Below, in pieces: positions 57,005-59,065 of a stretch of 64,000 nt of DNA (the first letter of the stretch is position 1; each line of letters begins with the position of its first letter). The stretch spans positions 305,696 through 369,695 of the forward strand of contig CACNIF010000001.1 of assembly GCA_902620465.1 (NCBI GenBank), in the 5' to 3' direction. Below the pieces are notes generated by a model, which did not search any database, was not told the DNA's origin, and saw nothing but the letters and a program-made list of their open reading frames with translations. Position numbers and translations under genes: made by a program. The stretch is from an uncultured Pelagibacteraceae bacterium. GTDB lineage: Bacteria; Pseudomonadota; Alphaproteobacteria; Pelagibacterales; Pelagibacteraceae.

Positions 57005-58828
57005 GTGGAAAGAATTATTACAAAATCGTTTGCAAGACTAATGGGTCGTGGAACCCATAGAGGATTTATTACTTACGAAGAACTAAGCAAATCCTTAGGT
57101 AAGAGGAATTTGTCTAATGAAAATCTTGCCCAAGCATTCATACATATCCTTGATGAAAAAGTTACTTTAGTAGAAAAAAAATCAGACTTTAAAGTTCTTA
57201 GAAAAAAGGACAGTTCCTCTAAAGAAGAAGGTAAAACTATCGAGAAAAGTGATGATCCTATTAGGATGTATCTTAGAGAAATGGGTGGTGTTGAGTTATT
57301 ATCTAGAGAAGGTGAAATAGCTATTGCTAAAAGAATCGAAGCTGGAAAAGATGTAATGTTAATAGCATTGTCTCAAAGCCCTATAACAGCTCAACAATTT
57401 TTTGAATGGAATGGAAAACTTCAAAAAGATGAAATTTTAGTTCGTGAGATTATTGATATTGATACAAATTATATGGAAGATGAAACAACTGGACCTAGTG
57501 CAAAACAAAAAAATTCTGGAGAATTAGAAAAAGAAGAAGGTGCTAGTGAGGAAGACGAGGATTTTAATCCCACACTTGCTGCAATGGAAAGTGAGATTAA
57601 ACCTAAGGTATTAAAAACAGTTAATTTATTAACTAAAGAATATAATAAACTTATCAAATACCAAAAAGAAAAATTAGACTGTGTGTTAAATTCAAAGACT
57701 TTTTCTCCTGCAAAAGAAAAAGGTCATGATAAAATTGTTAATGACATCTTAGAGAATATTAAATCTCTCCAATTGTCACCATCTGTTTTAGAAGAATTAG
57801 TTCAAAAACATTATGTAGAGAACAAAAAGATTGTTTCTCTAGAGGGAAATTTAATGAGGCTAGCTATAGATCAAAAGATTCCTCGAAATGAATTTATCAA
57901 GTTTTATATTGGTAATGAAATTAACCCTAATTTAAAAAAGTTTTTAGATACAAACTCTTTATGGAAGCAATTTTTCTCAAAAAATAAAGATGAATTCAAG
58001 AATATTAGAGATAGATTAGTTGAAATAAGTCATAAATTAGGGATGTCGGTAACTGACTATAAAAAGTTAGTTAGTAGAGTACAAAAAGGAGAAAAAGAAT
58101 CTAGAATTGCGAAAAAAGAAATGGTTGAAGCAAATTTGAGACTAGTTATCTCGATTGCCAAGAAATATACAAACAGAGGTTTACAATTTTTGGACTTAAT
58201 TCAAGAGGGAAATATAGGTTTAATGAAAGCAGTCGACAAATTTGAGTACAGAAGAGGTTATAAATTTTCTACTTATGCTACATGGTGGATACGACAAGCA
58301 ATAACAAGATCCATTGCTGATCAAGCAAGGACAATTAGAATTCCAGTCCACATGATAGAGACTATAAATAAGATTGTAAGAACTCAAAGATTAATTCTCA
58401 GTGAATTTGGAAGAGAAGCAACTCCAGAGGAACTGGCAAAAAAATTAAGAATGCCACTAGATAAAGTGAGAAAGGTTTTAAAAATTTCTAAAGAACCAGT
58501 ATCTTTAGAAAAACCAGTTGGTGATGAAGAAGATAGTAGTCTAGGAGATTTTATAGAAGATACGAAAGCCCTCGCACCTCTAGAACAAGCAATTAAATCT
58601 AATTTAGGAGAAGCAACGACAAAAATATTATCAACTCTTACACCTAGAGAGGAGAGAGTATTAAGAATGAGATTTGGGGTTGGTATGAATACAGATCATA
58701 CTCTAGAGGAAGTTGGTTTACAGTTCTCTGTCACACGTGAACGTATAAGACAAATTGAGGCGAAAGCTCTGAGGAAATTAAAACATCCAAGTAGATCGAA
58801 ACAGTTAAAGAGTTTCTTAGAAAGTTAA
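57005..58828 (+). CDS. rpoD: RNA polymerase primary sigma factor (sigma-70)
   Basis: 607 aa from GTG 57005. Region 1.1 ([28 protein letters not shown]), region 1.2 ([33 protein letters not shown]), a large non-conserved region, then regions 2-4: [74 protein letters not shown], and [37 protein letters not shown] (56971) with TAAAAT 15 bp later sits just before the start codon, so translation may begin with a very short leader if that promoter is used. Two tRNA genes follow. Confidence 0.96.
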
Positions 58829-58839
58829 GTTTTATATTT

Positions 58840-58914
58840 GGGCCGTTAGCTCAATAGTAGAGTACTGCATTGACATTGCAGGGGTAGTTGGAGCGTAACC
58901 AACACGGCCCACCA
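58840..58914 (+). tRNA. tRNA-Val(GAC) with non-canonical D- and T-loops
   Basis: GGGCCGT pairs fully with ACGGCCC, followed by A and an encoded CCA. The D-stem GCTC/GAGT, anticodon stem CTGCA/TGCAG with loop TTGACAT (anticodon GAC) and T-stem GTTGG/CCAAC all form. The D-loop AATAGTA lacks GG, and the 7-base T-loop AGCGTAA lacks the TTCRA consensus, so the usual elbow contacts cannot form. Four intact stems argue that it is transcribed and folded; a pseudo-tRNA is the alternative. It starts 12 bp after rpoD. Confidence 0.75.
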
Positions 58915-58988: not shown

Positions 58989-59065
58989 GGGCCTGTAGCT
59001 CAGTTGGTTAGAGCAGTACACTCATAATGTATTGGTCCCAGGTTCGAGTCCTGGCGGGCCCACCA
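58989..59065 (+). tRNA. tRNA with CAT anticodon (elongator Met or lysidine-type Ile2)
   Basis: Acceptor GGGCCTG/CGGGCCC (one G-T pair), canonical D-arm TAGCTCAGTTGGTTAGAGCA, anticodon arm GTACA-CTCATAA-TGTAT with CAT, T-arm CCAGG-TTCGAGT-CCTGG, discriminator A and encoded CCA. It is not an initiator tRNA: the first base pair is a normal G-C and the anticodon stem lacks three G-C pairs. Elongator Met and TilS-modified Ile2 cannot be separated by eye. Confidence 0.93.

Follow-up and report, generated by a model that had tools for sequence, protein, structure and literature searches.

Directly downstream of rpoD in the 64,000-nucleotide stretch of Pelagibacteraceae DNA analysed here (the window) lies a tRNA-Val(GAC) gene with an encoded CCA end and two unusual loops, followed by a second tRNA with a CAT anticodon (Table 1). 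A sequence-only reading had described the valine gene with a D-loop AATAGTA and a T-loop AGCGTAA next to a fully canonical neighbour, and all of this holds: ARAGORN calls both genes, the Rfam tRNA model recognises tRNA-Val(GAC) as a cloverleaf with 53.6 bits (E = 6e-10; curated covariance threshold 29), and its minimum-energy fold is a full cloverleaf (z = -3.3). The neighbour scores 72.7 bits. The same reading had stated that both partners of the 18-55 and 19-56 elbow contacts are missing. This is right for G18 and U55, which are replaced by A18 and G55, but wrong for G19 and C56; the Rfam alignment places both of them, which rules out loss of the G19-C56 contact. The true departures are A18 for G18, G55 for U55, A54/U58 for U54/A58, and A15/A48 for G15/C48. 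The gene accordingly lacks canonical G18G19 and TPsiC loops (it has A18 G19 and A54 G55 C56), and this strips it of the label "canonical", not of the label "works like an elongator". The rest of the host assembly, which is 77.9% complete, has 21 other tRNAs, all with a TTC T-loop; they include a canonical tRNA-Val(TAC), the second valine tRNA whose existence the sequence-only reading had raised.

Table 1. Features of the rpoD-tRNA locus, in window positions.
Feature	Position	Strand	Basis
rpoD	57005..58828	+	NCBIfam RpoD equivalog; stop codon 11 bases 5' of tRNA-Val(GAC)
tRNA-Val(GAC) gene with encoded CCA	58840..58914	+	ARAGORN, Rfam, fold; 75/75 identity in 21 further genomes
D-loop AATAGTA (A14 A15 U16 A18 G19 U20 A21)	58853..58859	+	Rfam alignment, comparison with relatives
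U16, covarying with A59	58855	+	Alignment comparison
A18 in place of G18	58856	+	Rfam alignment
G19, retained	58857	+	Rfam alignment
Anticodon GAC	58872..58874	+	ARAGORN
A48, opposite A15, replacing the G15-C48 Levitt pair	58886	+	Rfam alignment and relatives
T-loop AGCGTAA (A54 G55 C56 G57 U58 A59 A60)	58892..58898	+	Rfam alignment and comparisons
G55 in place of U55	58893	+	Rfam alignment
C56, retained	58894	+	Rfam alignment
A59, covarying with U16	58897	+	Alignment comparison
Canonical CAT tRNA, annotated Met	58989..59065	+	ARAGORN

Although annotated as tRNA-Met, the CAT tRNA is probably tRNA-Ile2, by elimination, since the genome has separate initiator and elongator tRNA-Met genes (L015, L014). 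In most relatives within the genus the start of tRNA-Val follows the rpoD stop codon after 0-32 bases, or the rpoD frame runs into the tRNA. The latter is seen at 13 loci (e.g. L036, L040 and L083), where no stop codon precedes the tRNA-Val gene. Given how closely the gene follows rpoD, tRNA-Val(GAC) would be made from the rpoD transcript and then freed by RNase P.

Conservation and covariation of tRNA-Val(GAC)

All 75 bases of the gene are identical in 22 of the 27 sampled genomes of the window's SAR11 genus (g1), and the identical sequence recurs in many contigs of uncultured Pelagibacteraceae. At the level of the order, the odd T-arm pattern is present in 230 of 397 genomes, which belong to three genera. 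Among 110 other alphaproteobacterial genomes sampled, the tRNA-Val loops are all normal. For covariation we aligned 17 distinct tRNAs with odd loops: 12 tRNA-Val of SAR11, a further two of viral origin, and three tRNA-His taken from other bacteria. Pairing is intact in 99.8% of the cells at marked pairs, and 15 of the 24 pairs are compensated on both sides; shuffled and slid controls are far lower. Positions 16 and 59 switch on both sides between U-A and A-U, and only one of the 17 sequences breaks this pairing. G19-C56 and A54/U58 are invariant throughout; the invariance of A54/U58 is partly a matter of choice, because the viral and tRNA-His sequences were picked for an A54/U58 loop, but neither the swap at 16/59 nor the changes in the stems depend on that choice. 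Together with the identity in 22 of 27 genomes, the alignment shows a gene under selection with compensated stems. The earlier suggestion of co-evolution instead of random decay is borne out by the identity across species, by the compensated stems and by the fact that positions 18 and 55 always switch together in SAR11.

At the same rpoD locus, two genomes of g1, G109 and G105, encode tRNA-Val(GAC) with the usual loops (G18 G19 and TTC); like the odd form, these genes have G10-U25 and A48. The tRNA of G092 is intermediate, with A18/G55 present and U54-A58 and G15-C48 retained. From their sequences, these orthologues and the intermediate indicate that the elbow switched in steps. The sequence-only reading had named orthologues with normal loops as a sign of sequencing or assembly error; such orthologues do exist, but they are natural alleles and no proof of error, given that many assemblies made independently contain exactly the same odd form.

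The A18/G55 elbow in other tRNAs

The combination of A18-G19 with G55-C56-R57 that is present in tRNA-Val(GAC) defines a wider elbow class. In SAR11 tRNA-Phe(GAA), A18/G55 occurs in 54 of 128 genomes and G18/U55 in the other 74, with no mixed cases; all 85 other alphaproteobacterial genomes sampled have G18/U55. The SAR11 A18/G55 tRNA-Phe has a D-loop AGGAGTA or AGTAGTA and a T-loop TGCGAAT or TGCGATT, and is also found in Pelagibacteraceae contigs, one of them from Candidatus Pelagibacter ubique. In the complete SAR11 genome G003, ARAGORN finds 31 tRNAs and a tmRNA, and TTC is missing only from the single-copy tRNA-Phe and tRNA-Val(GAC). Because this sole tRNA-Phe (at 204435) is of the A18/G55 type, the elbow must, as judged from gene content, serve translation, and the single-copy A18/G55 tRNA-Phe is the strongest argument that it does. 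The tRNA-His of the same genome (at 205064) has both odd loops as in tRNA-Val and is missed by ARAGORN, a warning for annotators. The SAR11 tRNA-His beside tRNA-Phe is hypervariable, with normal and several A18/G55 forms and at least 10 bodies, some of which also escape ARAGORN (L379, L402, L415, L601 and L602, among others). An AGCGTTA T-loop with A18 likewise occurs in tRNA-His of Patescibacteria (L430, L445) and of another bacterium (L481).

In IMG/VR we searched viral tRNAs that share the D-stem, whatever their isotype, for A18-G19 combined with G55-C56. A18/G55 is present in at least 120 viral stretches, across isotypes; scans of the whole collection gave 23 stretches with A18/U55 and 26 with G18/G55, most of the latter being A18 in short loops. 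After a cloverleaf filter the distinct viral tRNAs number at least 162 (A/G), 313 (G/U), 20 (A/U) and 7 (G/G); these are counts retrieved by pattern and not population frequencies, with the mixed classes scanned to the end and the A/G figure a lower bound. The mixed combinations are rare. All the A/G loops listed have a purine at position 57. At six viral loci (L204, L209, L287, L299, L307 and L325) the T-loops have TTT, and the D-loop fits an A19-U56 pair replacing G19-C56.

Interpretation of the elbow and competing explanations

We regard it as very likely, judging by the comparative evidence, that the gene encodes a working elongator tRNA-Val for GUU and GUC codons, with an elbow that coordinated substitutions have rewired. 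GUU is the commonest valine codon both in G003 and in the window, and is read by a GAC anticodon. Since tRNA-Val(TAC) coexists with it and some genera seem to do without it (several SAR11 genera have no tRNA-Val(GAC) matching the pattern used), tRNA-Val(GAC) may be dispensable, useful rather than essential. Comparison with canonical tRNAs indicates that the cloverleaf, G19 and C56 have been retained while G18/U55 became A18/G55 and U54/A58 became A54/U58, with positions 16 and 59 covarying as U-A or A-U. In a standard tRNA U55 starts the U-turn of the T-loop, and GNRA loops form the same turn with a G. By analogy, G55-C56-R57 would make the sharp turn of U55-C56-R57 as a GNR turn, and probably preserves this turn of the T-loop, A18 having taken over from G18 as the partner; A18 would pair with G55 in the role of G18 with U55 or Psi55, in a geometry that we can only infer. 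The loops would dock through the unchanged G19-C56 pair and an additional 16-59 contact, and the L-shape would therefore be kept without T54 and Psi55.

One proposal for what led to the switch, which adds a cause to the rewired-elongator reading and which we hold to be possible but doubtful, is that loss of TruB, the enzyme that makes Psi55, in lineages that also lack TrmFO weakened the U55-based contact, so that a pseudouridine-free A18/G55 elbow was selected. TruB was not found in any of the 27 sampled g1 genomes, seven of them single-contig, and is also absent from g2, g3, g4, g6, g8, g10, g11, g13 and g14, i.e. from 10 of 14 sampled Pelagibacteraceae genera including g1; it is present in g5, g7, g9, g12 and most of family f2. 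Between 113.2 and 114.2 kb of G003 (L515) the order nusA-infB-rbfA-rpsO-pnp leaves no room for truB between rbfA and rpsO, and tblastn of this genome gave no significant match to E. coli or SAR11 TruB, nor to E. coli TrmA. No TrmFO scored above the cut-off across the order. In addition, A18/G55 tRNA-Phe was seen only in genera without TruB, and the TruB-less g1 and g4 cluster in the MnmG tree (support 89/94), on which the tRNA-Phe elbow requires at least three switches, counted by hand. However, three g12 genomes (G023, G040 and G048) have the odd tRNA-Val and g9 has an A18/G55 tRNA-His, all with TruB retained, which rules out TruB loss as a necessary cause; the viral A18/G55 tRNAs are spread over many unrelated contigs; and G003, without TruB, still has TTC in most of its tRNAs. 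Moreover, TruB was apparently lost only once or a few times, which leaves the correlation between TruB and elbow with little independent support. Because A18/G55 tRNA-Val and tRNA-His occur alongside TruB, its loss is at most permissive, and may favour the switch.

It is rather unlikely, though well short of negligible, that the odd gene was acquired, whether from a phage or from another SAR11 lineage, and displaced an earlier tRNA-Val allele. The loops do recur in tRNA-Val on viral contigs (L105, L158), close relatives differ in whether the locus holds an odd or a normal allele (G105, with normal loops, groups with the odd G003 in the tree), and one tRNA sequence is common to G023 and G048 of g12 and G026 of g1. 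Against this, C25 is found in the viral forms, while those of g1, odd or normal, have G10-U25 and A48 in common and lie at the rpoD locus. A viral source sequence was not found: 50,697 phage records gave no match, and an exact search of IMG/VR with a 48-base stretch was negative. A role outside translation, comparable to that of the staphylococcal cell-wall tRNA-Gly, would be compatible with a canonical tRNA-Val(TAC) that could cover GUN codons, but is very improbable considering that the same elbow is present in the only tRNA-Phe of G003 and in tRNA-His, which must decode. The lower score relative to the neighbouring tRNA and the existence of normal-loop orthologues might point to a pseudogene or to a sequencing or assembly error, the least credible of these explanations: the sequence is the same in 22 genomes, it is present in assemblies of many isolates, and compensated changes in the stems contrast with constant odd loops, ruling out decay or error.

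Textbooks treat the 18/55 contact and Psi55 as near-universal in tRNA. The free-living and very abundant SAR11 bacteria, with a single-copy tRNA-Phe in two interchangeable elbow versions and no Psi55 synthase in many of their genera, offer a natural test of what the elbow requires. As a broader and tentative proposal, A18/G55 on a G55-C56-R57 turn could be a second natural elbow solution with no need for Psi55, one that might have spread through SAR11 isotypes after TruB loss and be used by phages for independence from host T-loop modification. We found no report of an A18-G55 pair in the open literature covered here. Steinberg and colleagues reportedly worked on suppressor tRNAs selected in the laboratory for changed D- and T-loops, and the pair may have been described earlier in such work.

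Comparison with known systems

With canonical class I elongator tRNAs (RF00005, and tRNA-Val(GAC) of other Alphaproteobacteria) the window's tRNA shares the cloverleaf, U8, A14, A21, G19, C56, G53-C61, the anticodon loop, A73 and CCA; it differs in A18/G55, A54/U58, A15/A48, G10-U25 and the covarying 16/59. In the elbow it resembles the A18/G55 tRNAs of IMG/VR viruses, which have A18-G19 and G55-C56-R57 in common with it; a few of these also have an AGCGTWA loop and 16/59 pairing, and they differ in belonging to many isotypes and, in most cases, in having U54-A58 (TGCRANN) or G54/G58. The sequence-only reading had likened the gene to mitochondrial tRNAs without an elbow. Type II mitochondrial tRNAs, which have no contacts between D- and T-loops (PMC7609411), do share the absence of the GG and TPsiC motifs, but the analogy fails: G19 and C56 are invariant in the 17 distinct sequences, the loops are of normal size, and the other contacts have been exchanged rather than lost. 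Eukaryotic initiator tRNAs, with A54-A58 in the T-loop (PMC7912444), share A54 and differ from the present tRNA in its U58, G55 and D-loop A18. Finally, a 16:59 contact is known from tRNA-Sec as C16:C59 or U16:U59 (PMC7609411), whereas here the two positions covary as U-A or A-U.
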